From positions 1 to 23,110 of the IMG/VR virus record IMGVR_UViG_3300042485_000249: a stretch of 23,110 bases of DNA; one strand, written 5' to 3'. The notes beneath the pieces were generated by a model that did no database searches, was not told where the DNA came from, and saw only the letters and a list, made by a program, of their open reading frames with translations. The number at the start of each line of letters is the position of its first letter. Within the stretch, counting starts at the first letter, position 1. A program made the translations under genes and the position numbers. Source of the DNA: a virus. Below, piece after piece: positions 8,488 to 23,110 of this stretch.

Positions 8488-8907
8488 TTAAGATATTCTA
8501 CACTTGCGTAGAACTTTGGTAACTGTTGTGAATTCTAAAGCTAAATCATCGTAGATATCTTCTACAGGTTTTACAACAACCGCACGTGTAACGTAAGCAG
8601 ATTGTCCCATTTCAGCATAGTAAGTATCAGTGGGCCAGCGACGTTTGTTCCATTCCATTGCGTTAATTAGTAAGCATTCATCGCCTACGTCTTTAAGTAA
8701 TACTTTGCGTTGAGCTACTGGTAAGTTGGCACTGGCCATTAGTTTAATACCTACGGGTTCTGTATTGACCTGCGGTTTATCTAAGAAATGTGCGAATAAG
8801 TGTACAACGTAGGCTTCGACATTGTGTGTTAATGTGATGGAAAGTGATGTTTCTGCTTCTTTGATAAGCTCGTAGGATTCTTTAACGTAAGTTTCCCAGT
8901 TGGTCAT
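8488..8907 (-). CDS. Conserved hypothetical protein
   Basis: The 139-aa protein starts with a helical region, followed by V-V-H-L-F-A-H-F-L, then a G-D-E-C-L-L-I strand and Y-A-E-M-G-Q-S-A-Y. No known enzyme motif is evident. It is joined to the superoxide dismutase gene by an ATGA overlap and is the last gene before the promoter region at 8424-8487. Its N-terminus (M-T-N-W-E-T-Y-V-K-E-S) only loosely resembles the targeting peptide of the genes upstream, so I do not count it as cargo. Near its stop, TTCTAC and GTAGAA form a 6-bp hairpin without a T tract. Confidence 0.75.
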   Translation of the reverse strand: MTNWETYVKESYELIKEAETSLSITLTHNVEAYVVHLFAHFLDKPQVNTEPVGIKLMASANLPVAQRKVLLKDVGDECLLINAMEWNKRRWPTDTYYAEMGQSAYVTRAVVVKPVEDIYDDLALEFTTVTKVLRKCRIS

Positions 8908-9443
8908 AGTCTTTGATTAACGACATCCCAGTTAATAATGCGCCAAATGTTTTTTAAATACTCGGTCTTGTCTGCTTGATAGTCTAAGGCCCATGCGTGT
9001 TCCCACCAATCTATCAATAGCGCAATATCTTTGCGCACTTGATGATTTTTGATAGTTTTTATGTCGCCTGATCGGCTCATATAAACCCATCCACTGCCCT
9101 GTATTGACATAGCAGTTGTTTTAATTTCTTCTTGAAACTGTTTGTAACTACCGTATTTCTTTTCTATTAGAGTTTTAACACTGCCTGTAGGATTGTTAAC
9201 ACCTTTGGGAGGCATCAATTGTGGGAAAAATATGTTATGCAGATAGGCTCCTGCTTCGTTAAACTCAGCGTTACCTTCACCCGCGTTGTAACGTGTGACA
9301 TAACCTTTAGCTAAGGTAGCATAATGGTAATCTATAGTAGCTTTACTCATCACAGGCTCAAGATCGTCGCGATCGTAAGGTAACTTGTTGAGCTCTAAGT
9401 CAACTTTGCTTTTACTTTCTACTAAGGTAATTAAATCTCTCAT
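8904..9443 (-). CDS. Fe/Mn-family superoxide dismutase (Mn-type residues) with capsid-targeting-like N-terminus
   Basis: The protein (179 aa from the chosen start) matches the Fe/Mn SOD family, which converts superoxide to peroxide and oxygen. All four metal ligands are present: H40 (I-D-Y-H), H69 (Y-L-H-N-I-F-F), D145 and H149 (D-W-W-E-H-A). The gateway Tyr (Y48) is present but the partner His of E. coli MnSOD (H30) is Leu. G65 together with Q135 points to Mn rather than Fe. An in-frame upstream ATG exists at 9524, but it lies inside the preceding gene. The ATG at 9443 comes one base after that gene's stop and gives the N-terminus MRDLITLVE-S, matching its neighbours. About 20 extra residues precede the usual SOD start (L-P-Y). 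Confidence 0.88.
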   Translation of the reverse strand: MRDLITLVESKSKVDLELNKLPYDRDDLEPVMSKATIDYHYATLAKGYVTRYNAGEGNAEFNEAGAYLHNIFFPQLMPPKGVNNPTGSVKTLIEKKYGSYKQFQEEIKTTAMSIQGSGWVYMSRSGDIKTIKNHQVRKDIALLIDWWEHAWALDYQADKTEYLKNIWRIINWDVVNQRL

Positions 9444-9444
9444 A

Positions 9445-9873
9445 TTAGTTTGCCTTGTTGCCCTTGTCTTTTTCTGTGATAGGTCCGCCAGTAACCCAAG
9501 CAGAACAACTACGTTCGCCGGCACATTTAAAGTGCAGGAAGTTACAGTAGCCTAGGTCGCTTAGATTAATAGTGGCATTAGCATCTATGTGTTTTTCGTC
9601 GCCTTGTATACCTTTGGCAATACAATCGCGCATGCTGTCACTAACATCAAAAGCTGCACAGTTACCACATAACATAGTCTTGGCAGTGGCTTCTTTAACG
9701 TTGAATACCTTAGCGGATTCCTTCCAGTAGTTTTCTGGCTTGTTAGGATTAGCAGGACCGTAATGATACTCGTCAATGGCGTGTTGTCTATTTTTTAAAT
9801 TGACATTGATGTCCGCAGTTGCCACAGGACAACCACGACTCACTGCTTCTATCAGAGTAATTAATTCTCTCAT
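9445..9873 (-). CDS. HiPIP-like iron-sulfur protein candidate with capsid-targeting-like N-terminus
   Basis: The 142-aa protein (chosen start) has six notable cysteines in its second half: C69-x-x-C72, C84, C110, C117 and C123-S-A-W. The order C-x-x-C, then G-x-C-x-x-F, then C-S-A-W resembles high-potential iron-sulfur proteins, which hold a 4Fe-4S cluster for electron transfer. The assignment is inference. A zinc-binding or disulfide-rich domain is possible. The frame is open up to 10002, but the ATG at 9873 follows the previous stop by one base and yields MRELITLIE-A, almost identical to the SOD N-terminus next door. Its pairing with SOD suggests a redox function. Confidence 0.6.
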   Translation of the reverse strand: MRELITLIEAVSRGCPVATADINVNLKNRQHAIDEYHYGPANPNKPENYWKESAKVFNVKEATAKTMLCGNCAAFDVSDSMRDCIAKGIQGDEKHIDANATINLSDLGYCNFLHFKCAGERSCSAWVTGGPITEKDKGNKAN

Positions 9874-9874
9874 A

Positions 9875-10534
9875 CTACCATTTACGGCATGACCAGTAGC
9901 GTGCTTTAGTGCGCGGCCCTGGGTTGGCACAGTTGTGACGTGCTCTGAATGATTTACGGCGTGCTGGATTTGATTTCTTAATACGCATATTAGGATCACC
10001 AAAGTTTACTTTTTTGACGTTACCTGTGCTAGGATCTTTAACGTAGACTTTAAACTTCTTAACATCACCTTGCATTGGTTTGCCCAATGGCACTTTACGT
10101 CCGTGATATTCAGCTTCGTCTAGTTGTTCATCTTCGTTGTACCACATTTCGCCATAAGCTTCAAAAAACTCATCACCGTGATATGTTTCTTCTATGCGTG
10201 GATCAATGCCTTGTTCTTCCTGGCTGATTAGATAATCCCAAACGCTGACCAACATACCCTGTGCTCTAGCAATTTTTTCCTGAGCCCATTCAGGTAAGTT
10301 TTCATTTTCATCAATAGTATCTATTAAGCCATCAACAGCACGTTTTAATGTGTGTAGATTGCTTTCTGCCATACCAGCTTCATCATCGTACTCAGCATTA
10401 AATTCTTCGCTGACTTTAACACAGTTATTAACGCGAACATCACCTTTCATTTTAGTGCCTTGTTTGCGATAACCTTTCCAACACTTAGCGTCTAAGCGTT
10501 GTTGTTCTTCTGATAAAAATTCATTTGACTTCAT
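9875..10534 (-). CDS. Modular phage protein of unknown function, targeting-like N-terminus
   Basis: The 219-aa protein begins MKSNEFLSE-E, fitting the (L/I)-x-E pattern. Three modules follow: a Cys-containing C-W-K-G-Y-R-K-Q-G-T-K-M stretch (residues 18-40); a helical module around 60-105 with L-P-E-W-A-Q-E-K-I-A-R-A-Q; and a basic C-terminal module (about 160-219) with K-V-Y-V-K-D-P-S-T-G-N-V-K-K, R-A-R-H-N-C and W-S-C-R-K-W. The last module is strongly positive and could bind DNA or RNA. Similar short modules recur in marine T4-like phages, as far as I recall, without known function. It overlaps the metallopeptidase gene by ATGA. Confidence 0.75.
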   Translation of the reverse strand: MKSNEFLSEEQQRLDAKCWKGYRKQGTKMKGDVRVNNCVKVSEEFNAEYDDEAGMAESNLHTLKRAVDGLIDTIDENENLPEWAQEKIARAQGMLVSVWDYLISQEEQGIDPRIEETYHGDEFFEAYGEMWYNEDEQLDEAEYHGRKVPLGKPMQGDVKKFKVYVKDPSTGNVKKVNFGDPNMRIKKSNPARRKSFRARHNCANPGPRTKARYWSCRKW

Positions 10535-11196
10535 TTGTTTTTCCCCGATTTCATGTTAGCACACCAGTGTGCCATGCGTTGCTTTTCGCCGCTACTATTT
10601 TTTGCTACACTTCTTAATTTACTTATACTTTGACCACAATCTACTCCGCTACGTTTGGCTAAGCCTTTACGTCCTGGCTTCTTACCATCCGCAAAGTTCT
10701 CATCAGTTTTCTTACGACCTGCACAGTGAGCCTTTTGACTAAAACCTTTAGGATTGCTACAATTAATACTCTTTTTGTATTTTGCACTCCATGCTTCAGG
10801 TAATGCTATTGGATCGGCCTGCATATAGCTAGGATGTTTTTGATTAAACAAACGCATAATAACACCAGCTTCTGCATTGGCTTCGTTCTCAATTGGACTG
10901 CCTGTTTCGCCAGAAGTGCTATCAAGTTGATCATCTTGGCCCTGCGCATAGTGCACCATTTCGTGTGCCAGAGTGCGCAGTACATCTACAGGATTTCGAT
11001 TATCAACAACTACATAAATTACTTGCTCATCATTGACATAACGACCAAATGTTGTATCATCTAGTGATTTAACTAACTTAATTTTAGGAATGTGATCTAA
11101 GTTTAAATGTTGAACTGCGATGGGCAAAAAATCACGCAATGCATCTATCAGCGTTGGCTTAGGTGGCCCTTGTTCAAACATTTCATATAAATTCAT
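10531..11196 (-). CDS. HExxH zinc metallopeptidase-like protein with Cys-rich C-terminal modules
   Basis: The 221-aa protein has H78-E79-M-V-H82 in a helix, followed by P-I-E-N-E-A-N-A-E-A-G, where E105 is a likely third metal ligand. This is the layout of small zincin peptidases of the IrrE/SprT-like class. The C-terminal part (about 140-221) is basic and carries C-S-N-P-K-G-F-S-Q-K-A-H-C and a final Cys-containing segment (M-A-H-W-C-A-N-M), possibly a zinc-binding or nucleic-acid-binding tail. The N-terminus M-N-L-Y-E-M-F-E-Q resembles the cargo-type leader. The substrate is unknown. A TATAAATACTATA late promoter lies 29 bases upstream, inside the preceding gene, and AGGA precedes the ATG. 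Confidence 0.75.
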   Translation of the reverse strand: MNLYEMFEQGPPKPTLIDALRDFLPIAVQHLNLDHIPKIKLVKSLDDTTFGRYVNDEQVIYVVVDNRNPVDVLRTLAHEMVHYAQGQDDQLDSTSGETGSPIENEANAEAGVIMRLFNQKHPSYMQADPIALPEAWSAKYKKSINCSNPKGFSQKAHCAGRKKTDENFADGKKPGRKGLAKRSGVDCGQSISKLRSVAKNSSGEKQRMAHWCANMKSGKNK

Positions 11197-14100
11197 TACG
11201 CCAATCCTGCTAGTCTACGTATAGTATTTATAGATTCGTTTGCTTGTGTTGGTAATGCTCTAACTGTTAAAGCACCACTTTCTAGTCCTAGGTCTTGTTC
11301 TAACTCGCGTGCCTTACGATGAGCATAAACCATATCAGCACCTTGTATTCTTGACACTACACTACCATCAGCTTTAACTACTTCAAAATCTGTAGCAGTA
11401 GTCTGTGCTACAGTTGGTTCCAATGGTAATTCTTGTTGTACTGGAGTTGCGCCGTGTTCGCTAGCATCGCGCTCACTGTCGCTGATACCACGACGACGTA
11501 GTTCACGTTTAATAATAACTCTAAAGTAAGCAGTCTGTTGATCATTTAATACTGCGGTTGTGCTGACATTACGTAACACGTTGATTAGATCCATGTCACT
11601 CTTATCTGCTACATTGTCTAACCAATCACGATGTGCTTGAGGTAAACTATCACGCACTGCGTTTTCAGCACCACCTGCGTTGGCAGCTAATTCGTTATTA
11701 CCGCTACGGCGGCGTATTTCTTGATTAACAGTATTAACAATAAAGTCTATTTGGCCCGGCTCTAAATTAGTAAAGTGGGCATTAACACCGTGGACCATAT
11801 TATCAAGTATACGCTGTAGATTGCCGTCTGTTTTGTTACGGATATCCTGTAGCCACTCTTGCCATTCATTAGCTAAACTGTCAAACACTTCTCTGCTGGT
11901 TGTTGGTTGTTCTGCCGGAGTTGCTCTATAGTATCTGGTATCAACATTATTAACGCTACCGTATACATGTAATGCTTCGTCACTGGTTCTTGCGTTTACA
12001 GTGCCAGCGGGTTCACCTAGACCGTTTATAATATTCCAAGTTACTTCTGGACGGCCAGCGTCCTGTGTAGTAGCAATAGCATCTAAATCATCAACAGTAA
12101 CAGTAATACCGTGTTCTCTACTAAAAATATCTATAGCTTTAAGTTTAGCCTGACGTGGACTATCCGCATCAACATATATTGGATCCCAATTACGATAAGC
12201 ACGAGTAGAAGTTTTAACCTTCCAGCGGGTTTCATTGCCGTCAACTACACCTTGATCCATTCTACTGCGTAGTTCACGGTCAATCTGTTTAACTATCCAA
12301 CCACTAGCATCTGCATCTAAATTATCACCACCATTTATTATTCGTTGTCTAACAGAGTTTGCTGTATCTACAGTAACACTAGGTAATGTGTCTGCTAGCC
12401 AATCAATCCAACTAATTGGCACTGATGCTGGTGGTGTATTTTCTTTGTTAGTATCCACAAACAATTCAGCTTTAAGTTGGCTGATACTTTGTTCGCGGTT
12501 CATACCCATTTGCTTGCCACCTTTGATAATGGCTTCGGTACTGCTTGTAGCAAACACCATTTGTTTGCCGCCACTGCCATCTTTATTCCTAACCCAGTAT
12601 TGTTGTTCATCACCTTTCTTCTCTTTACGAGCTACCTGTGCTTGACGAACATTGTTAACTAGTTCTGTTTTGTTAATTTGCCCTAGTGCATAGCGACTGA
12701 ATAATGCAACACTATTGTTAGGGTCAGTCCACTCGCCTTCTGGGCTAATTAGTTTGTATAGTTTCTTAGCATACTCTTGTTTGTATGCTGACTCGTCCGT
12801 GGCAATGCGTAGGCTTTGTGCTAGGCGTAGAGCAGTATTAACAAGTTTAGGTATGTCTTCGTTTAGATAATCGCCTCCCGGACCACGGAATTCTACGTAG
12901 TTGCCTTTGGTATTGATACTTGTATACTTTTGTGTAACTCCACTGTGTACTAGTTTACTAGCTGCCGCTCCAAGATGTTCTTTCATCTTAGCTAACAATG
13001 CCGTGGCATTTTCTGGATTCTGTTGAATCTTTTCTCTAACAATCTTCATAGCACTTTTAGCATAAGTGTTATAAGCACGACCAAACTCTTGAAGTACGTA
13101 TTCGTCACCTAGGAATAATGCTAGTTTAACATAGTCTAGATTATCAGTGGTCATGTTAGGCACACTGATGTTCATGTGTAGGCCCGTTGATTTGTTAGTA
13201 TAACAACCTGCAAGTTTGGCCCATTGTTTAACTTTCTTCAACATCACCAGGCCATCTTTAAGCGGCATTGCCGGACTGATAAACTCTAGACCAGCGTCAC
13301 CTTGGTCAGCATCAATTGAACCATCTGGCTCAATGATAAAGTAACCTTCTTGTTGTTGTTGACTACGACTACCACTGTGGTAATTACCAAAACCGCGTGC
13401 TTCATATCCGGTAGCACCATAAAAGTCATCAGCTACTTGATCTACGTCTGCGTCGCCACCGCCGTTGCCTTCGTTGGCATCATACATGTGTGGCCAATCA
13501 AATCCCCAATGACGTTCGGCGTCCTGCATGTCACCAATGCCAATGTCGCTTAACCATGCTGCTTGATCGCCATCACCACCGTTACGGAAATCATCTTCCA
13601 TCTCCTGGCGTGCTTCATCGTAGGCAGATTGATACTCATTACTATTAGTATCTCCCATCAACTCGTCTACTCGATCTTCGATCATTTGTAATGTTAGATC
13701 GCGAATCTCTGCATTAGCTTCTTCACTAGTAGCATCTTTGTCTGGGTTTGCTTCTTTCCAGCGTTGATGTGCTTCTTCGGATGCATCATCACGACTAACT
13801 TCATCTTCTAAACGTTCACGAATTGACTTATCTAAATCATCTACATTATCATCTATATAACGATTAGCAGCTTCATAACTCCATTCTAAGTATTCATCAA
13901 ACATCTCACTTCGAGCACGATCTGCATCACTGCGACCCATATTACTGAAATCACCGTTACGGAAGAAGTTAACAATATCGTCAATGTCATAGGCGCTTTC
14001 GTTGTATTCGTAATCGTATTCCCAGTCGGGTTCATCATCACCTGTGCTGGTATTGGGTACACACATTTCAAATTCAATACCCATAAGCATACCATCAGCT

Positions 14101-14201
14101 TCTGGACTGTTAGCGAACGCTTCTAGGCTGGATGGACTCATCGATACTTCATCAATGATCTCTGCTTCTTTTAGGGCTTGTTTTATTTGACTATATCGCA
14201 T
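11196..14201 (-). CDS. Large amidoligase-like protein with repeated C-terminal modules
   Basis: The 1001-aa protein has a glutamine-synthetase-fold amidoligase signature. It begins G-I-E-F-E at 41-45. A long acidic insertion follows (about 50-265). Then come G-L-E-F-I-S-P-A-M-P at 304-313, S-T-G-L-H-M-N-I-S at 338-346 and Y-V-E-F-R-G-P-G-G near 435-443. Amidoligases join carboxylates to amines with ATP; the substrate here is unknown. The C-terminal half alternates two repeat types. Beta-alpha modules start near 535, 659, 721 and 938. Helical W-x-D/W-L modules lie at about 597-647, 772-833 and 850-905, two of them ending E-(I/L)-R-R-R. The N-terminus reads MRYSQIKQALKE-A, a possible (L-K-E) cleavage site. 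It ends in S-I-N-T-I-R-R-L-A-G-L-A. An ATPase role is unproven. Confidence 0.65.
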   Translation of the reverse strand: MRYSQIKQALKEAEIIDEVSMSPSSLEAFANSPEADGMLMGIEFEMCVPNTSTGDDEPDWEYDYEYNESAYDIDDIVNFFRNGDFSNMGRSDADRARSEMFDEYLEWSYEAANRYIDDNVDDLDKSIRERLEDEVSRDDASEEAHQRWKEANPDKDATSEEANAEIRDLTLQMIEDRVDELMGDTNSNEYQSAYDEARQEMEDDFRNGGDGDQAAWLSDIGIGDMQDAERHWGFDWPHMYDANEGNGGGDADVDQVADDFYGATGYEARGFGNYHSGSRSQQQQEGYFIIEPDGSIDADQGDAGLEFISPAMPLKDGLVMLKKVKQWAKLAGCYTNKSTGLHMNISVPNMTTDNLDYVKLALFLGDEYVLQEFGRAYNTYAKSAMKIVREKIQQNPENATALLAKMKEHLGAAASKLVHSGVTQKYTSINTKGNYVEFRGPGGDYLNEDIPKLVNTALRLAQSLRIATDESAYKQEYAKKLYKLISPEGEWTDPNNSVALFSRYALGQINKTELVNNVRQAQVARKEKKGDEQQYWVRNKDGSGGKQMVFATSSTEAIIKGGKQMGMNREQSISQLKAELFVDTNKENTPPASVPISWIDWLADTLPSVTVDTANSVRQRIINGGDNLDADASGWIVKQIDRELRSRMDQGVVDGNETRWKVKTSTRAYRNWDPIYVDADSPRQAKLKAIDIFSREHGITVTVDDLDAIATTQDAGRPEVTWNIINGLGEPAGTVNARTSDEALHVYGSVNNVDTRYYRATPAEQPTTSREVFDSLANEWQEWLQDIRNKTDGNLQRILDNMVHGVNAHFTNLEPGQIDFIVNTVNQEIRRRSGNNELAANAGGAENAVRDSLPQAHRDWLDNVADKSDMDLINVLRNVSTTAVLNDQQTAYFRVIIKRELRRRGISDSERDASEHGATPVQQELPLEPTVAQTTATDFEVVKADGSVVSRIQGADMVYAHRKARELEQDLGLESGALTVRALPTQANESINTIRRLAGLA
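11225..11232 (-). promoter_or_regulatory. T4-type late promoter inside the 3' end of the amidoligase-like gene
   Basis: The minus strand reads TATAAATA followed by CTATA, very close to the T4 late consensus TATAAATACTATT. It lies within the last codons of the 1001-aa gene (Ser-Ile-Asn-Thr-Ile). It would start transcripts about 20 bases before the metallopeptidase ATG, leaving room for its AGGA ribosome-binding site. Confidence 0.75.
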
Positions 14202-14207
14202 ATTAAG

Positions 14208-14215
14208 TATTTATC
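14208..14215 (-). promoter_or_regulatory. Late-promoter-like GATAAATA before the amidoligase-like gene
   Basis: The minus strand reads GATAAATA-CTTAAT-ATG. It overlaps the last codon region of the upstream gene and sits only six bases before the ATG. With T4 spacing the start site would fall at or just before the ATG, giving a leaderless transcript. It may be functional, degenerate or coincidental. Confidence 0.4.
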
Positions 14216-14789
14216 GTAAACCTATTTTCATAAATCGTTTGTAGGTTTGTCCATCTGCACCTTCAAGTTGAATAGTATCTAATACTAATTCTTCAGCTAA
14301 GGGATACGCACGATTAAAGCTATCAAGGGTTTGGTGTAGATTATCTGGATTGTCAGGTTGACCATCACGACCTTGTATGGCCACAACACTGCCTTTGGGC
14401 ACATTGTCTAACCATTGATTAAATCTGATATCGTTAGTGCTGGTATTAATGACTAATATACGATCGCCTACAAACTGTGTGTCTAAGCAATCTTGTGTTA
14501 CTGCTACGATCTTATCTTCTATGCCTAACTGACGATTAAAACGTTGTGTCCATTCTGTGTTCTTAGGATCTATATCTATTAGATAAGCTGTATCAAACTT
14601 AATTTTTTTATATAACAGATATGGACCCATACTGCCATACCATGAGCCTAATACGTAAACATTATCAAACTCTGTTAGGTCTAAACGATTGAGCGTAGTT
14701 AGTAGCCATAGTTTGCCAAGGTTGAGATCTTCAGTGCGACTGCCCTGCGGAGTATCTGGAGAATTTTCAAATAGTTCTATGGCTAACAT
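14211..14789 (-). CDS. Class I methyltransferase-like (Rossmann) protein, targeting-like N-terminus
   Basis: The 192-aa protein contains V-L-G-S-W-Y-G-S at 46-53, where motif I of SAM-methyltransferases lies, and L-I-D-I-D-P at 70-75 with the expected acidic residues after strand 2. N-T-S-T-N-D-I and V-V-A-I-Q-G-R strands follow. The G-S-W-Y-G loop lacks the standard G-x-G-x-G, so SAM binding is likely but not certain. The substrate is unknown. It starts M-L-A-I-E-L-F-E-N, similar to the leaders of adjacent genes. It lies six bases after the 146-aa gene's stop and just before the amidoligase-like gene. Confidence 0.65.
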   Translation of the reverse strand: MLAIELFENSPDTPQGSRTEDLNLGKLWLLTTLNRLDLTEFDNVYVLGSWYGSMGPYLLYKKIKFDTAYLIDIDPKNTEWTQRFNRQLGIEDKIVAVTQDCLDTQFVGDRILVINTSTNDIRFNQWLDNVPKGSVVAIQGRDGQPDNPDNLHQTLDSFNRAYPLAEELVLDTIQLEGADGQTYKRFMKIGLR

Positions 14790-14795
14790 AATATA

Positions 14796-15236
14796 TTAAG
14801 ATCCTAGTTTAGTTAATTCGTAAGTAACTAGGTCACCGTGATCCTCAGAGTATTCATCATACCCCCATGCTCTAGCATAACGAGCAACTAAACTATTATA
14901 TAGTTTTGCTCTACTTTCGCTACTTTGATTAGGATCACCATCTTTGCTTGCTGTAAACATTATCCGCCATGGCTGTTCTTTTTTGATGAATTGTTGTATA
15001 GCAGACAGCACCGTAGCGAATATACGATAAGCATCACCTTCGCCGGTTACTGATTGGCTATTGTTTCTGTAAAACTCGACTTGCCACTCACCGTCGCCTT
15101 CGTTGTTAAACATTATACTAAGATTAGTACCACCATCTAATCTAGCCAGCGCATCGTAATCACCGTGCTCACCTTGCTCCCATCGTAAAGGATAAGGTTG
15201 ATTAAAACTTTCAATGATGAATTCACGTGCTCTCAT
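14796..15236 (-). CDS. Hypothetical protein with capsid-targeting-like N-terminus MRAREFIIE
   Basis: The 146-aa protein starts MRAREFIIE-S, one of the clearest examples of the shared leader. The rest is alpha/beta, with G-E-W-Q-V-E-F-Y-R-N, a helix near 70-90, W-R-I-M-F-T-A-S-K near 94-102, and S-R-A-K-L-Y-N-S-L-V-A-R-Y-A. The last two elements resemble a recurrent marine-phage domain, but I know no function for it. Its ATG follows a structured 91-base gap and has an AGGA ribosome-binding site (TAGGATCATT). Removal of the leader would leave a soluble protein of about 137 aa. Confidence 0.75.
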   Translation of the reverse strand: MRAREFIIESFNQPYPLRWEQGEHGDYDALARLDGGTNLSIMFNNEGDGEWQVEFYRNNSQSVTGEGDAYRIFATVLSAIQQFIKKEQPWRIMFTASKDGDPNQSSESRAKLYNSLVARYARAWGYDEYSEDHGDLVTYELTKLGS

Positions 15237-15327: not shown

Positions 15328-16323
15328 TTAATTCTTATAATAGAAGTAGTGTATATCTTCTTCTGGATTATACTTTACTACTAAATCGTCTAACACAAAC
15401 TCATCGCCGTATTCGTCAACCAACTGCGCAAACGTGGTGGCATCACCGAAAATATATTCAATAACATCATCATCGGTACAATTACCTTGATAGCTTAATC
15501 CTTCGTCTTCGCTTATAAATTCATTTGCTCTCATATCGGTCTGATTCAACACATACCTATCATACAAATCACTTAATTGGAAATCACTACGAATTAGTTG
15601 CTCTTCAGCACTGCCTGTAGGCCACGGTTTCTTTTTATTATATGCTATTTGGTATGCTTTTTCTGGAGTTAACGGCACATTTTTTCTAACTGTGTCCTTA
15701 AACACGCTGTATAGAATAGGGTAGTCATCATCACCTACCATACCTGACGCTACAGGTTGTTGTCCACCCTCACGGCGGATAAAATCAGCAAATACTTCTT
15801 GAAACACTTTTTTTGGATTACGACAGTAATCTCTGCTGGATTGGCAGTCATCAGTAAAGCCTTCAAAGTGTACACGGTAATCGCCTACTTCGTCTACACC
15901 AACATCTTCCGGTGTTAGATTATTTAAAAATTCTTCAACTTCTGGATCTAGTGATTCAGTTAATTCTTTAACAGGCACATACGCTGGTATGTGCGTTATT
16001 CCTAATTCTCTTGCCTGCCATGCACGATGGTTACCATCTAAGATATGCCCTTGTCTGTCTATGACAATAGGTTTACGTTTGATATCGTCTGGTAAGATTT
16101 CATCAGCATAGTCTACATCGACGTGTACTACACGACCATACGGATCATCGTCTGCGTCAATTTGTAATTGATCTACTGCTACAGTTTTTAGTACATATTC
16201 TGTATTGGCTAATATTATTTGATCTAGGTTACTGTCTTTTTGTGATGCTGGATGTATGCTGTTGACATAGTCTAAGACCTTGCCGGCGCTAACATTTTCT
16301 AAGATAAATTCTTTAGCTCTCAT
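15328..16323 (-). CDS. ParB/sulfiredoxin-like domain protein with a second internal targeting-like motif
   Basis: The 331-aa protein begins MRAKEFILE-N. Residues 83-117 hold a ParB/Srx-type core: K-P-I-V-I-D-R-Q-G-H, then I-L-D-G-N-H-R-A-W-Q-A at 94-104, where G-N-H-R matches the family's G-x-H-R nucleotide-binding motif. Members are nucleases, CTPases or reductases, so activity cannot be chosen. The middle part (about 130-260) is unknown. At residue 264 a second leader, MRANEFISE-D, occurs in frame (ATG at 15532-15534), followed by a 58-residue acidic tail. This looks like a fusion of two cargo genes. I saw no good ribosome-binding site before the internal ATG. The 5' end overlaps the NTase gene's stop (TAATG). 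Confidence 0.7.
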   Translation of the reverse strand: MRAKEFILENVSAGKVLDYVNSIHPASQKDSNLDQIILANTEYVLKTVAVDQLQIDADDDPYGRVVHVDVDYADEILPDDIKRKPIVIDRQGHILDGNHRAWQARELGITHIPAYVPVKELTESLDPEVEEFLNNLTPEDVGVDEVGDYRVHFEGFTDDCQSSRDYCRNPKKVFQEVFADFIRREGGQQPVASGMVGDDDYPILYSVFKDTVRKNVPLTPEKAYQIAYNKKKPWPTGSAEEQLIRSDFQLSDLYDRYVLNQTDMRANEFISEDEGLSYQGNCTDDDVIEYIFGDATTFAQLVDEYGDEFVLDDLVVKYNPEEDIHYFYYKN

Positions 16324-17024
16324 TATTTTAAACTCAAATCATCGTCTTGTTGTTGACGGTATGCTTTACTTAATTTGTCCATGTACTTCATATTACGTAG
16401 GATTTTAAATGCTAGATTTTCTGTGCTGAATTCACCGCCTGCATCTAAACCTGCACGGCGCATTTTACGAATCTTTTCTGATATGCGTTTAATATCTTCT
16501 GGATCATCAGCGGCTACAATAGCATGATCAATTTGGCTACGTAGATCTAATACTTTGGCATTAACACTAGCACGATCAATTGATGGTACTTTAAAGTCAG
16601 GAGTTTTAAGCCACTTATTGTTTAACAAACTATACACACCTTCGCTAACTGGAGGTTGCGCAACATCTTCTACATACAATTCTACATCATAACCGTAGAT
16701 GGTAATGTCGTGTCCATCATTCCAAATTTGTTTCTTGGCACGATAGAACGCTTCGGCAATATCATCGCACTGTAGGTCACTGTAGTTAGTAACCACGTGT
16801 ACATCAAAGTCACTGAACTTAGTCCAGTTATAGTTGGCCATACTACCTGTAAGTACAACATCTTCTACTTTAAAATTAGGAATCTCTAAGTAGCTAACAA
16901 ATCGTTCGGCTATTTCTAATAGACGATCACGCACTTCTTCGACGAGTGTGTTATTGTCCCAGGCCGCTGGATTCAGCTGACTGTTATAAGCAACGTTGTT
17001 CTTGGTAAAATCTCTAGCTCTCAT
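16323..17024 (-). CDS. Nucleotidyltransferase-fold protein (Pol beta type)
   Basis: The 233-aa protein has L-T-G60-S61-M-A-N-Y-N-W, then S-D72-F-D74-V-H, the G-S...D-x-D signature of Pol beta-like nucleotidyltransferases. A third acidic residue is available in Y-D-V-E115-L-Y-V. All three catalytic carboxylates are therefore present. The C-terminal part (about 150-230) is helical and basic (I-R-K-M-R-R-A-G-L-D). The target (protein, RNA or small molecule) is unknown. The N-terminus M-R-A-R-D-F-T-K-N-N keeps the M-R-A-x-x-F start but lacks the x-E cleavage site, so it may be an uncleaved or degenerate leader. TAGGAT precedes the ATG. Confidence 0.8.
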   Translation of the reverse strand: MRARDFTKNNVAYNSQLNPAAWDNNTLVEEVRDRLLEIAERFVSYLEIPNFKVEDVVLTGSMANYNWTKFSDFDVHVVTNYSDLQCDDIAEAFYRAKKQIWNDGHDITIYGYDVELYVEDVAQPPVSEGVYSLLNNKWLKTPDFKVPSIDRASVNAKVLDLRSQIDHAIVAADDPEDIKRISEKIRKMRRAGLDAGGEFSTENLAFKILRNMKYMDKLSKAYRQQQDDDLSLK

Positions 17025-17032
17025 TGTTTATC

Positions 17033-17410
17033 CTAACCGTTTGTAAAATCAAATAACGCATCTTCGCCTTTGTCTGTTAAGGCAGAATTCTGTACCAATC
17101 CATTGGCTGCTAATGACTGTTGTAGTGCGTCAAAGTCTTTAGTTTGTCCTAGACTATCATAGCCATACCCTAGCTCGTTGTCGTGTGCAGTTTGAATTGC
17201 TTTTAGCACTAACATAGTGCCGTACCCTTTTCTTTGAAATTCTGGGGAAATACTCACGTCGTGAAATGCATCACCTTCTTCGTCAACACTATATTTGTAT
17301 GCGCCTACTTTGACATTTCCGACAAATAATTCCACAGTGAATCCACGAGCAAAGTTACTTTGGCTACTTACTCGAAATTTATTAGTGTTAGTAACTTCGT
17401 TTATCAGCAT
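17033..17410 (-). CDS. GNAT-family acetyltransferase
   Basis: The 125-aa protein carries the acetyl-CoA binding motif Q59-R-K-G-Y-G64 after a strand V-S-I-S-P-E-F, and the helix M-L-V-L-K-A-I that follows is typical of the GNAT fold. Length is at the short end for a single GNAT domain. The substrate, protein or small molecule, is unknown. The N-terminus (M-L-I-N-E-V-T-N) is only weakly like the shared leader. It lies between the 453-aa unknown gene (1-base gap) and the NTase gene (8-base gap) in one operon. By analogy with injected phage enzymes it might modify host proteins, but that is speculative. Confidence 0.8.
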   Translation of the reverse strand: MLINEVTNTNKFRVSSQSNFARGFTVELFVGNVKVGAYKYSVDEEGDAFHDVSISPEFQRKGYGTMLVLKAIQTAHDNELGYGYDSLGQTKDFDALQQSLAANGLVQNSALTDKGEDALFDFTNG

Positions 17411-17411
17411 A

Positions 17412-18773
17412 TTAGTGTATTGCGTATTCTATACGCTTGCCTTCTTTATCTGTGTACAGTAAACTAACGTCCCATGCTCCATTACCACCTGCACGTTTAA
17501 CGTAGATGTGATCTTTAATCCATTCTGCTACACCACCGTCACTATCTCTGCCGCGGATATTTTGTTCTAGGCTGTAGATAAAGATTTGATCGAGATCTGA
17601 TATTTCTTGTGTATCGGCACCCCACTCACGACCTGTTTCTTCGGCTAGCGCACGCACATCCCATGGCTGTAAATCCACAGCATTATTGATAGAGACAATA
17701 AAATCATTTGCTTCGTAATTCCAACTGGTGTAACTTTCGCCAGCATCTGCTGCAGCATCAAAGTCAATTTCGCCTTCTTCCTCGTGGCCTTCTGGATATA
17801 CATATCCTTTTTCACGTAGGTAATCCCACCAGTAGTCGTCCCCAACTACCCAATCATTGACTATTTCACTAACATGATCGTTTACGGCTGTTTTAATTTT
17901 TTCTATTAACGGTTTTAGTACTTCGTCGGAAGCAAAGACTATCCAATCATTCAAATAGCCTTCTGGCATTTCTTCCTGGAAAAACGGTACTAAATTGCCA
18001 AAGCGCACTGTTAGTAAATCTACAATACTGTCTACACTGTTGTCGCCTTCGTCCATAAACTGACCACTAGGGAAGTGTAGTTGATATTTTTCACCTTCGT
18101 AGTCAGGCCGTTTAGGCAGTAGGATATACATTTGTCCATCGCGGGCATACTGCTCGAATCTATTGTTTTCACGTGCGGCTGTACACCATCTAGTGCCTTG
18201 ACCATAGTAACAGGCTGCATCTTCGTCATGCGGCACAATAATGCGCACAGCTTCATTTTCGAACGCAGTGTAGGCATCGCCCTTGCTCATAGTTTTAGCA
18301 GCATCCTGTTCTTCTTTGGCCGCTAAGGCGTTACGCAGATCGAGATTTTGTGCAATATCTTCTAGTCCAGCAAAGTCAATGCGACCAATGTCACGATACT
18401 CTGCAGGTAAGATTTTTTTAACTTTAAATTCGTGATACATTTTAAGCGCACTGTTACCACGGCTTATTATATCTTCTAATTTGATGCCTTGGTTAGCATA
18501 TACTTTAGTCAACCATTGTACATACTCTTTATTAGGAGTAGGGTCGGAATTTTCAATTACAACCATGATATGGTCAATGATTATTTGACGTTGTTCTGCT
18601 GTAATCGCATCATTAATCTTGATCTTTTGATCAATGAACGCACGGTCTGTGCCTAATTGTGTACCAGAAAGAGTGTGACTCTTATCCTTGCCCAATGCCG
18701 CAACAAGTTTGTTGCCAAAGACATTGACTGTTTTCTCTCTGCTGTACTCTCTTAAAAATTCTTTAAATCGCAT
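17412..18773 (-). CDS. Large phage protein with GTRWCTA motif, unknown function, targeting-like N-terminus
   Basis: The 453-aa protein begins MRFKEFLRE-Y, with L-R-E as a possible cleavage site. Its most distinctive section is G-T-R-W-C-T-A at 193-199, followed by Y-I-L-L-P and Q-L-H-F-P-S-G-Q-F-M-D-E-G-D at 231-244. The pattern of W-C plus a beta-hairpin ending D-E-x-D looks like a conserved catalytic or binding core, with C197, H233 and the acidic residues as candidates. I do not recognise an established family. The C-terminal 170 residues are acidic and Trp-rich. It overlaps the upstream NTase gene by 11 bases. Confidence 0.75.
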   Translation of the reverse strand: MRFKEFLREYSREKTVNVFGNKLVAALGKDKSHTLSGTQLGTDRAFIDQKIKINDAITAEQRQIIIDHIMVVIENSDPTPNKEYVQWLTKVYANQGIKLEDIISRGNSALKMYHEFKVKKILPAEYRDIGRIDFAGLEDIAQNLDLRNALAAKEEQDAAKTMSKGDAYTAFENEAVRIIVPHDEDAACYYGQGTRWCTAARENNRFEQYARDGQMYILLPKRPDYEGEKYQLHFPSGQFMDEGDNSVDSIVDLLTVRFGNLVPFFQEEMPEGYLNDWIVFASDEVLKPLIEKIKTAVNDHVSEIVNDWVVGDDYWWDYLREKGYVYPEGHEEEGEIDFDAAADAGESYTSWNYEANDFIVSINNAVDLQPWDVRALAEETGREWGADTQEISDLDQIFIYSLEQNIRGRDSDGGVAEWIKDHIYVKRAGGNGAWDVSLLYTDKEGKRIEYAIH

Positions 18774-19704
18774 CGAACTGTCCTAATATACGTTGTGCTT
18801 CTCTTGTTAATAATGCTTTGGTATCTTCAGCTTTTTTCTTAGCTTCCGGTGTCACAGCTTTATCAAACTTACTGCTATTAACTGCCTTGCTTATTTTACT
18901 TATGTAAATTGCTTTCACTTGTTCTATTAACTCAGGACGGCCCAAACTTTCAGCAATGCCAACAATACTGTTAATAGTATTTGAAGTTTTTATTTCGTCG
19001 CCCATGCCTGGATACTTGGCTAAACGTGCGCTGATAGTTTTAGCACCAAGGAATGTAGCAATATCAACTGCCCATGTGTCGGGATTATTTGTTATGGTTT
19101 TAAGCTCTGTATCTTTAGTTTGTCTAAAACTAACTGGCACACCATTTTGTAATTTAACCTGTACTCCACGTCCACCAAAGCTAAGATTTAATGCTTCTGC
19201 CAATGATGAATATAAACTTGCACTTAGTACACCTTTAACATTGTACTCTGGTCCTAAGGCACGACTCCACTGTTCGTTCTCATAGTATGCTGTAACAAAG
19301 TCAACTTGTACATATTGCTCGCCTACTTTAATTATAACATTTGTGCCGTTGTTAGTTGAGTAATTAGGGTTACTGTCGCAAAACTCTTTAATAGCTGAAC
19401 TGTATGTTTGTTCGTTGGCATTGTCTGACATATCAGGCAAGCGTGGCACAAAGAAGTTAACATCAATGTCACCGTATTCACGAGTTGGATTTTGTGCAAG
19501 GTCGCGTTTGTAGTAGGTTGTACTACCAACTGGTGTACCTATCTTAACTGGTGCTAGGTCTTTAGTTTTTAAGAAAGCATTTAATGCTTGTTCGAACGCA
19601 GGTAATGATTGTACAACAACATCAACCAGTGCAGGTGTAATATGTGTACCTTGTGTTAAGGTACTTGCCCAACCGCCTTCTAAGATAAACTCTTTAGCTC
19701 TCAC
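18763..19704 (-). CDS. Nucleotidyltransferase-fold protein with capsid-targeting-like N-terminus MRAKEFILE
   Basis: The 313-aa protein starts MRAKEFILE-G from a GTG codon that overlaps the upstream stop (GTGA). A Pol beta-type signature follows: V-G60-S61-T-T-Y-Y, then Y-G-D79-I-D81-V-N-F-F, and V-Q-V-D135-F as the third carboxylate. This resembles nucleotidyltransferases of the CCA-adding, MNT or OAS/cGAS-like superfamily, but the substrate cannot be read. The rest is helical, with a Lys-rich tail. It is distinct in sequence from the NTases at 16323-17024 and 19701-20438. Confidence 0.75.
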   Translation of the reverse strand: MRAKEFILEGGWASTLTQGTHITPALVDVVVQSLPAFEQALNAFLKTKDLAPVKIGTPVGSTTYYKRDLAQNPTREYGDIDVNFFVPRLPDMSDNANEQTYSSAIKEFCDSNPNYSTNNGTNVIIKVGEQYVQVDFVTAYYENEQWSRALGPEYNVKGVLSASLYSSLAEALNLSFGGRGVQVKLQNGVPVSFRQTKDTELKTITNNPDTWAVDIATFLGAKTISARLAKYPGMGDEIKTSNTINSIVGIAESLGRPELIEQVKAIYISKISKAVNSSKFDKAVTPEAKKKAEDTKALLTREAQRILGQFDAI

Positions 19705-20551: not shown

Positions 20552-21265
20552 TTACTTAGGCAATGCAAACTTTAGTCCTGATGCTTGTTCTACAGCAGCC
20601 ACAGTAGTTTCGTACTTAGGTAAGTCTGCTACAGGCAGTGGACCGTTGGGCATTAAATAAGCCTTAACTTTCTTACTGTTCTTTTCAATGATAATCTTGT
20701 ATAAGCGTGTAGGAATACCTAAACCATTACCCGTCTTTTGATGGCCAGCATCAAAGATACCACCCGAAATAATGTAGTAGTCTGTACCTGGTTGCTTTGC
20801 CCACTCACGTTCAAATGTTTCTAACTGTTTCCAAATGCCACGGTTGTTGTTGGCTATTTGCGGTTGCATATTGCTTAGGTAAAAACTCTCACTCATGATT
20901 GCTGGATCTTGTGTGTTATTACCTGCTGGGCTCATATGACCACGGTCATGTGTACGACCTACTGTAGCATAGTCAGCAAGTGTTGCTGAACATGCCGGTG
21001 TAACTTTTGGGTCTGGGCGGAAGTCATCTTTACGTTTAGCAGGACCAGTCATATCTTCTGATGATAATCGTTCGAATACTGCAATAGGTGCTTTAACAGC
21101 ACAGCTATGTATAATAGCATAATTCTTGTGACAAATTTCTTGATCGCCCGGCTTGGCTGCGTAGGTTGCACTACCTGCGGCTGTTAATGCAGGGCACTCT
21201 TGATTGATACCTGCCCATGCCGTTGATGATACTAAAATTGATAATACTAATACTAACTTTTTCAT
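20552..21265 (-). CDS. Exported DNA/RNA non-specific endonuclease (beta-beta-alpha-metal type)
   Basis: The 237-aa precursor has a clear signal peptide: MKK, a hydrophobic core V-L-V-L-S-I-L-V, and a cleavage site after A-W-A (about residue 18). The mature part carries D107-R-G-H110, the catalytic motif of Serratia-type nucleases, then S-N132-M-Q-P-Q with the metal-binding Asn, and N-R-G-I-W-K-Q-L-E149. Several Cys could form disulfides, consistent with export. The enzyme should cleave single- and double-stranded DNA and RNA outside the cytoplasm. It has its own late promoter and AGGAG ribosome-binding site on one side and a terminator on the other. The cargo genes lack a signal peptide, so its route differs. 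Confidence 0.92.
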   Translation of the reverse strand: MKKLVLVLSILVSSTAWAGINQECPALTAAGSATYAAKPGDQEICHKNYAIIHSCAVKAPIAVFERLSSEDMTGPAKRKDDFRPDPKVTPACSATLADYATVGRTHDRGHMSPAGNNTQDPAIMSESFYLSNMQPQIANNNRGIWKQLETFEREWAKQPGTDYYIISGGIFDAGHQKTGNGLGIPTRLYKIIIEKNSKKVKAYLMPNGPLPVADLPKYETTVAAVEQASGLKFALPK

Positions 21266-21290: not shown

Positions 21291-21900
21291 CTACAGGCAT
21301 CCACGTATTCAATACAAACGGTGTAGCATGTACATATTTTAATGGTACAAAGTCCATGCTGATACTAATCCTAGGTTCATCACCAGTCCAGGGTTCTACC
21401 ATATGTACATCACCTATATCTTCGTACAAGGTAATAGTATTATTTTCGCAGGGCATGTCATAGGTAGCATCGGGGAATTTATAGATAGTTGTGCTGGGCT
21501 CTGCGTTTATATAATAGCTACAAACATAAGTTTCGTGTAGGCCACTTAGCGCACCCCAATGGTTGTGCCAGGGGATACTGTCACCTTTTTCTAAATAGTT
21601 TAACCAAGCGTGTACACAGTAAGGTTGATCATATTGATTAACTTCTTTAAAGAAAGTACAGGCTTCTCGATATAGTTGATGTATTTCTTGATAGGGAAAG
21701 GTTAGTGCATTGTAGTAGTCGTGATACTTGCTACTCATAGGCACACCTTCTAACTGTTTAGCTAACTCGTTCTGATAGTATTTGTTGTCGGGTACAGTAA
21801 GATCGCTATAGGCTTTGGTAATCTTATTGTTAATACGTCTAGCATCACGTTTAAGTCGATCTAGATCTAGATTAATCTTTTTTATTTGTATTGGTGTCAT
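21286..21900 (-). CDS. 2OG-Fe(II) oxygenase-like protein
   Basis: The 204-aa protein has an N-terminal helical part (about 1-90), then a double-stranded beta-helix core. W-H112-N-H114-W is followed by L-S-G and a strand pair (Y-V-C-S-Y-Y-I). A distal H166 lies in D-V-H-M-V-E-P, and R177-I-S-I-S-M-D-F follows. The order H-x-H, S-G, H...P and R-x-S-x-S matches phage and bacterial 2-oxoglutarate-dependent oxygenases with H-x-H/D...H iron ligands and a 2OG-binding Arg. The substrate is unknown. It overlaps the desaturase gene by 29 bases, so translational coupling and a shared lipid- or membrane-linked role are possible. It could instead hydroxylate a protein residue. Confidence 0.7.
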   Translation of the reverse strand: MTPIQIKKINLDLDRLKRDARRINNKITKAYSDLTVPDNKYYQNELAKQLEGVPMSSKYHDYYNALTFPYQEIHQLYREACTFFKEVNQYDQPYCVHAWLNYLEKGDSIPWHNHWGALSGLHETYVCSYYINAEPSTTIYKFPDATYDMPCENNTITLYEDIGDVHMVEPWTGDEPRISISMDFVPLKYVHATPFVLNTWMPVV

Positions 21901-22636
21901 TTGAAATTAATCGTGATAATTGATAAGTCCAGTCAATGCCTTGACCTAGACTATGATCTGCTAGACTTTGGTCTTCGTGATGGTTTTTATGCCATGTTTC
22001 ACCAAAGCCAAACCACATATAACTTCTACTGTTATTAGGACCTAGATCATCATGTTGCATCAACAGTACTAATGCTACTGCCCATAAGGTTAGACTGCAA
22101 GGAATTAACCATAAGAATAGCAATGCTTTCCAACTGATTAGATAAAATATAGCCGCGTTAGCAAATACAAATGGCCAATAGAATTGATGTACAAATCCGT
22201 AACGTTTTGTCAATTCTGCCATGTTTCTGTTAAATTTAATTTCTTTTTGATCTATTTGTCTGTGGAAACAGTATAACACACTACGCCAGCCGCGATTTGG
22301 ACCATGCGGATCCTGATCACTATCGTGTATTCTGTGATGCACTTGATGGATGCTAGCATAGCATATTGGACTGCCCATGCCGCCCATCATAGCACACCAA
22401 GCAACAAACCATTCTGTGGGCTTGTTCATAGTAAAGTAATGGTGACAGTAATAACGGTGCATACCGATATTATTACCAATAGCCAGATATAAGAAGTAAA
22501 AGATAAAACTACCTAACCACCATAGCCAATCTGCACCGCTGGTAACAGCTAGATATAGATATACAGGCAACATAACCTGCATTAGAGTCATCCAAAAATA
22601 ATTAGGTTGACTTAGCCATTTGATAAATTTATTCAC
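21872..22636 (-). CDS. Membrane fatty-acid desaturase
   Basis: The 254-aa protein is a membrane di-iron desaturase. It has three histidine boxes: H60-R-Y-Y-C-H65, H97-Q-V-H-H101 followed by D-P-H-G-P-N-R-G-W, and W-H216-K-N-H-H220. Hydrophobic helices lie near 14-33, 37-56, 76-92, 152-172 and 173-194. The family inserts a cis double bond into acyl chains, classically delta-9 of acyl-CoA or lipid-linked chains, using an external electron donor. No fused cytochrome b5 or ferredoxin domain is present. Length is a little short of bacterial DesC-type enzymes. The GTG start overlaps the stop of a second desaturase gene (GTGA), and its 3' end overlaps the oxygenase gene. Confidence 0.9.
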   Translation of the reverse strand: MNKFIKWLSQPNYFWMTLMQVMLPVYLYLAVTSGADWLWWLGSFIFYFLYLAIGNNIGMHRYYCHHYFTMNKPTEWFVAWCAMMGGMGSPICYASIHQVHHRIHDSDQDPHGPNRGWRSVLYCFHRQIDQKEIKFNRNMAELTKRYGFVHQFYWPFVFANAAIFYLISWKALLFLWLIPCSLTLWAVALVLLMQHDDLGPNNSRSYMWFGFGETWHKNHHEDQSLADHSLGQGIDWTYQLSRLISNDTNTNKKD

Positions 22637-23110
22637 GGTTGCCCTTTTGTATTAAATTTAGGAAAAAATATTTTACTAAAATGATATGTGTAATCTATTT
22701 CATTAGTATATATCGCTGTATTTGGCGCCATTGGCCAATTGTGATGATTTAAATGCAGTCCTTCATACCAAGGTTCAATTAGATGTGTTGAACAGTTATT
22801 GGCCTTCATTGGCCAATGCTGTCTTAATACTGCAAATCCAATACCCCAAATTGCTAGTGACACAGGGATTAACCAACAAAATAAAAATATTTTATAATCA
22901 ATCATCCATAATAGTGCGGCATTGGCTAATATAATAGGAACATAATACCTATGTAACCACCAATACCTTTTACTTAATTCTAAAACATGTCTATTGAATA
23001 CAGGAGTTATGCTGGGATTAATTGGGCGTTGGAAACAGAATAGAACTGAACGTAGTCCGCATGATGGGCCATGTGGATCCAATGGGGTATCGGTATATTT
23101 AGGATTATGA
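22633..23110 (-). CDS. Second fatty-acid desaturase, 5' end outside the window
   Basis: The frame stays open to the right edge. The visible part begins H-N-P-K-Y-T-D-T-P-L-D-P-H-G-P and so extends the frame beyond any internal start (the apparent start at 23082 is a TTG). D-x-x-x-D-P-H-G-P after the second histidine box and G-L-H-L-N-H-H near the end match the same family as the next gene. Two hydrophobic helices lie between. It differs enough from its neighbour (for example C-G-L-R-S versus R-G-W-R-S, and H-W-P-M versus H-D-D-L) to be an old duplicate or separate acquisition. About 159 codons are visible. The first histidine box is off the window. Confidence 0.85.
   Translation of the reverse strand, partial: HNPKYTDTPLDPHGPSCGLRSVLFCFQRPINPSITPVFNRHVLELSKRYWWLHRYYVPIILANAALLWMIDYKIFLFCWLIPVSLAIWGIGFAVLRQHWPMKANNCSTHLIEPWYEGLHLNHHNWPMAPNTAIYTNEIDYTYHFSKIFFPKFNTKGQP

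Follow-up and report, generated by a model that had tools for sequence, protein, structure and literature searches.

Why would a phage superoxide dismutase (SOD) begin with a short leader resembling the one that directs proteins into the T4 head? This question is raised by the open reading frame at 8904-9443 (-) of an IMG/VR virus fragment of 23,110 bases (the window, meaning the whole stretch of DNA analysed here). Comparison with other phages leads us to a reading to which we assign a probability of about 0.72: the SOD would be a head-packaged cargo of a T4-type jumbo phage, with its leader cut off and the enzyme delivered at infection.

Genomic Setting

The window DNA polymerase, which phrog_262 spans over its full length, has its nearest cultured-phage matches in two jumbo phages, Sinorhizobium phage Phosso and Agrobacterium phage Atu_ph07. 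No head genes, the gp21-family protease included, were found in the 23-kb window. Several other genes were observed there. A 545-aa protein with a GTG start (1261-2898, (-)) is kept in near relatives and gave no Pfam or PHROG match. An adjoining pair of fatty-acid-desaturase-like genes lies at 21872-22636 and 22633-23082 (-), the first with a weak NCBIfam match. The gene at 20552-21265 (-) encodes a DNA/RNA non-specific endonuclease whose start is signal-peptide-like, and an exact TATAAATA is present 18 bases upstream of this gene; near-matches to this T4 late promoter sequence are rarer than chance, with no excess of the motif.

Enzyme Core of the Phage SOD

The 179-aa product of 8904-9443 (-) matches both Sod_Fe_C (4.2e-24) and Sod_Fe_N (3.5e-11) past the Pfam cut-offs. 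In an alignment of 46 phage homologues, the metal ligands H40, H69, D145, and H149 are invariant, in agreement with the first-pass annotation, which had described all four as conserved. Gateway residue Y48 and L44 are invariant as well. The latter occupies the position of E. coli H30, and the replacement by Leu that the annotation had pointed out is indeed present; its invariance among phage SODs indicates a family trait and not decay. The AF2 model has an overall pLDDT of 92, and structure comparison with solved SODs gave Z scores of 23-24 over 162-168 residues at an rmsd of 1.6-2.2, so that the product, as modeled, adopts the SOD fold. Judged from its sequence, 8904-9443 encodes a phage Fe/Mn-family SOD with an intact active site and predicted activity.

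A scan of viral contigs detected at least 579 phage SOD relatives. A bacterial origin was also considered and set aside: the genome_contigs scan returned a single match, a 3.9-kb MAG contig at 58% identity, and a cellular donor was therefore not seen.

Metal Preference

The first-pass annotation had further assigned the enzyme to the Mn type on the basis of G65 and Q135. The first of these residues holds, being invariant among the 46 phage homologues. The second varies (Q/E/A/K), and because Q135 is not conserved, the Mn-type label is not supported; the invariant residue is instead the adjacent H134, which is placed by alignment alone in a region where the profile alignment could be off by one or two residues. 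The phage SOD also carries HYATLA, in which the HH of HxxxHH is lost, and has L143 two positions ahead of the Asp ligand. SodFM3/4 enzymes are marked by a lost HH in HxxxHH together with a C-terminal His (PMC10172142), and the cambialistic S. aureus SodM likewise has a Leu two residues before the Asp ligand (PMC13008324). L143, the lost HH, and the invariant H134 point tentatively to a SodFM4-like enzyme with an Fe or mixed preference, and from these residues Fe or mixed metal use appears at least as likely as use of Mn. The possible likeness to the SodFM4 subfamily (PMC10172142) lies in the lost HH and in a C-terminal His that likely occupies the water-binding place, whereas the phage SOD differs in its shortened helical hairpin and in belonging to a clade that is phage-only as far as searched. 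The text of the SodFM survey does not mention phages (PMC10172142).

The N-Terminal Leader

The proposed leader, MRDLITLVE, is encoded at 9417-9443 (-), with a predicted cut at E9|S10. The first-pass annotation had chosen the start that adds MRDLITLVE-S to the SOD. No ATG, GTG, or TTG occurs between M1 and codon 31 of the open reading frame; the leadered start is thus the sole one that keeps the SOD core, and its ATG lies one base past the upstream stop. The extension is also conserved. Among SOD loci, for which all counts given here are from the best 80 of at least 579 viral relatives, a hydrophobic-x-Glu triplet stands 9-13 residues ahead of the SOD core in 80 of 80, and the P1' residue after the leader Glu is Ala or Ser in 66 of these best 80.

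Residues 1-10 form the sole segment of the AF2 model with pLDDT <50 and are disordered in it. For 50 solved SODs, among the matches listed, the alignment begins at model residue 12-15, mostly at 14 or 15. In the model, residues 1-13 lie outside the SOD fold. A Sec-type signal peptide was ruled out by inspection of the SOD leader, which has neither a hydrophobic core nor a cleavage motif.

Leaders on Unrelated Proteins

A similar leader, MRELITLIE (9847-9873), begins the Cys-rich protein encoded at 9445-9873 (-), a putative cargo that gave a body-only match to a leaderless homologue. This leader belongs to the family: at least 95 viral contigs carry the Cys-rich family with the same leader, and leaders such as MRNYINLLEA are kept in most of 80 loci. 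An SOD gene is found within about 2.5 kb in only 7 of these 80 loci. The leader consensus is MRDLINLVEA in the SOD family and MRNLINLLEA in the unrelated Cys-rich family, and the mean BLOSUM score between leaders is 21; segments drawn at random from these proteins score -10 ± 6.7, and 0 of 20,000 reach the leader mean. The homologue in Actinomycetia phage DSL-LC01, where an S77 protease was not found, matches in the body only and has a quite different N-terminus. From these sequence comparisons, the leader is apparently a module shared by unrelated phage proteins. Its style on the SOD differs by phage, as in MRATEFLTES with neighbors MRARDFLIE and MRANEFIIE.

The Cys-rich family is itself highly conserved, with seven invariant Cys residues, one of them near the leader. 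The structure model of the window protein is poor (pLDDT 54), and no Pfam or PDB match was found for it; the family's label as a high potential iron-sulfur protein (HiPIP) comes solely from the annotation of distant phage homologues.

The leaders extend well beyond these two genes. Using patterns that were drawn after the window was seen, we counted a leader ending in hydrophobic-x-Glu in 10 of the 12 genes that follow one another between 8904 and 19704, compared with 12 of 147 internal Met positions. Past the Cys-rich gene, all on the (-) strand, the tagged genes encode a protein with leader MKSNEFLSE (9875-10534) whose C-terminal half is common to other phages (HVA1 family); a metalloprotease-like protein with leader MNLYEMFE (10531-11196; weak PHROG metalloprotease match); an amidoligase-like protein with leader MRYSQIKQALKE (11196-14201; Amidoligase_2, 3.2e-06); a possible methyltransferase with leader MLAIELFE (14211-14789; weak NCBIfam match, 0.011); a protein with leader MRAREFIIE (14796-15236) that matches phrog_16075 (6.4e-14), a family without assigned function; and a ParB-like protein with leader MRAKEFILE (15328-16323; weak PHROG ParB matches). 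The ParB-like protein has a second, internal leader, MRANEFISEDE (MRANEFISE near 15508-15534), and resembles a fusion of two leader-tagged genes. Degenerate leaders begin a nucleotidyltransferase-like protein (MRARDFTKN; 16323-17024; NTP_transf_2, 1.4e-4), whose cyanophage homologues match its body only, and a GNAT acetyltransferase-like protein (MLINEVTN; 17033-17410; Acetyltransf_1, 4.7e-06). The last two genes encode a protein with leader MRFKEFLRE (17412-18773), kept in relatives, and a protein with a GTG start and leader VRAKEFILE (18763-19704).

With a slightly adapted EF-type pattern, leaders were found on 13 of 368 ORFs and 1 of 1930 internal starts in one near relative, and on 7 of 227 ORFs and 1 of 1267 internal starts in another. 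More distant relatives have few leader-tagged genes. In the near relative G021 (L232-L248), three tandem genes around 70098-71409 start with MKINEILAES or MKLFEIKKET and make up another cluster of tagged genes outside the island.

Comparison with T4 Head Targeting

In the T4 record, ipII and ipIII start with MKTYQEFIAE|A, gp24 with MAKINELLRE|S, and Alt with MELITELFDE. The first ten residues of IPIII suffice as a capsid-targeting sequence (CTS), and gp21 cuts after L/I-x-E (PMC9026906). The EF-type leaders match the T4 CTS, and leaders that end in Leu/Ile-x-Glu conform to the motif cut by the gp21 protease. S77 (gp21-family) protease genes occur in long relatives of the window, as do genes for Gp23 capsid proteins; near the N-terminus of the latter, an L-x-E|[SN]A site is conserved. 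At the gp67 place, a small gene between portal and scaffold, a similar leader is present in relatives and in PA5oct. The capsid-targeting role that had been suggested for the SOD leader is strengthened by this T4-like motif, by its presence on unrelated proteins, and by the gp21-family protease of the relatives, and it remains a prediction at the sequence level.

Across T-even phages, internal proteins vary behind a common leader (PMC9026906; PMC12373910; PMC3012670), and T4 internal proteins of this leader class are injected (PMC12373910). The window resembles T4 IPI-III and Alt in its short leaders ending in L/I-x-E, unrelated bodies, and variable island, and in the gp21/gp23-type head genes, which here are found in relatives. 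It differs in that an entire metabolic enzyme, SOD, is the putative cargo and in that at least ten tagged genes, as read from sequence, stand in tandem. By comparison, the sequence case for head targeting of the SOD is strong.

Evidence from Cultured Phages

Pseudomonas phages PA5oct, MIJ3, Callisto, and Paride have homologous SODs (41%) with a leader-like start. In contrast to the window, these phages are distant relatives with few leader genes, and a packaged-cargo role is not described in the literature on them that we examined. The PA5oct homologue (41%), which starts with MNDSIKKYISIAEA, carries the record note "ESI-MS/MS". The same note stands on 93 of about 438 genes (21%), those for ribonucleotide reductase and thymidylate synthase among them; since these are likely soluble enzymes, detection may reflect carry-over. 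Leader genes were not enriched among the MS/MS-noted genes of PA5oct (2/90 versus 2/332, p 0.20), and we no longer used this proteome to test the leader. The note on the SOD homologue is thus a hint of virion presence, not proof.

Vibrio phage 2.275.O has the protease and an SOD (L083:7968-8537) without an N-terminal leader. In this single case, the C-terminus reads MLDE|SVNIRHLINFISK, resembling a cut site followed by a leader, and targeting may here depend on a signal relocated to this end of the protein. No close relatives of this leaderless SOD were found in viral contigs.

Variable Presence and a Second Context of SOD

The near relatives G021, G022, and G033 keep the flanking genes and lack SOD at this place. 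In G032, SOD lies between the same two neighbors as in the window and has the EF-type leader MRAQDFLTES. By analogy, the SOD place appears to vary like the T-even internal-protein locus. Genes that look similar to the fatty-acid-desaturase-like pair are inserted close to the SOD place in two relatives (L162 and L221).

Many other phages carry SOD in a second context, between IF-1 and IscA-type genes, without the tandem leader island; these SODs retain the leader. Among the best 80 of at least 579 SOD loci, an IscA/HesB-type Fe-S gene is near SOD in 43, mostly within 900 bases downstream, and an IF-1 gene in 48, usually just upstream. None of these 80 loci has both IscA and a window-type polymerase, which divides the SOD loci into two groups.

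Proposed Mechanism and Alternatives

We propose that the first nine residues of the SOD act like the T4 CTS and would attach the SOD to the prohead core as the head is assembled. A gp21-type prohead protease would then cut after Leu-Val-Glu, leaving in the head a 170-residue SOD of ordinary appearance that starts about five residues ahead of the usual start. The freed enzyme would be delivered to the host along with the DNA and there clear superoxide, either at entry or shortly afterward; alternatively, it could protect the packaged DNA. Packaging, cleavage, injection, activity, and benefit are what we infer for this SOD.

The SOD could also be an ordinary auxiliary metabolic gene product that acts in the cytoplasm during infection, with an extension that is neutral or aids folding or oligomerization. 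SOD belongs to the auxiliary genes already known and has been suggested to buffer ROS while infection proceeds (PMC12542629), and the metabolic neighbors described above (IscA-type downstream in 43 and IF-1 in 48 of the best 80 of at least 579 loci) would suit such a role. The Glu of the extension and its flanks, however, are conserved in all 80 of these best loci and are common to unrelated proteins, and the extension lies outside the modeled fold; we consider this explanation quite unlikely. A packaged SOD might instead stay inside the virion and protect DNA or Fe-S cargo, with no role after entry. The adjoining Cys-rich protein with the same leader and the Fe-S genes near many phage SODs are consistent with such a protector; against it stands the injection of T4 internal proteins whose leaders are of this class (PMC12373910), and we consider it unlikely as an end point.

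It is very improbable that the leader targets the baseplate, tail, or membrane, or flags its protein for proteolysis, rather than directing it to the head. The second-context SOD does lie close to tail-fibre-type genes, as read from their N-terminal repeats, but the leader matches both the T4 CTS and the gp21 motif, similar leaders occupy the gp67 place in relatives and PA5oct, and the sequence has no Sec-type hydrophobic core.

Implications

Head packaging followed by delivery, our preferred reading, has a partial parallel among viruses. We know of no T4-type leader on the Cu/Zn SOD of chlorovirus PBCV-1. That enzyme is packaged in the virion, and this virus-borne SOD is proposed to lower superoxide during infection (PMC7019647); it differs from the SOD described here in having a Cu/Zn fold and coming from an algal virus, compared with an Fe/Mn fold in a bacteriophage. 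T4-type internal-protein targeting is known, and what is new is SOD as its putative cargo. A broader proposal, to which we give slightly less than even odds, is that T4-type jumbo phages use a generic head-targeting leader to bring in an enzyme kit with active SOD and a Cys-rich redox protein among its members, so that superoxide in the host would be gone before phage gene expression.

If this is true, virion-delivered enzymes would go beyond anti-restriction proteins and ADP-ribosyltransferases to include an antioxidant enzyme delivered by a bacteriophage particle, and hosts of a phage lineage often met in metagenomes would receive a stress enzyme at entry. As a sequence handle, the leader would moreover serve to list the injected cargo of uncultured jumbo phages, and the question of what phages inject would become testable from sequence.
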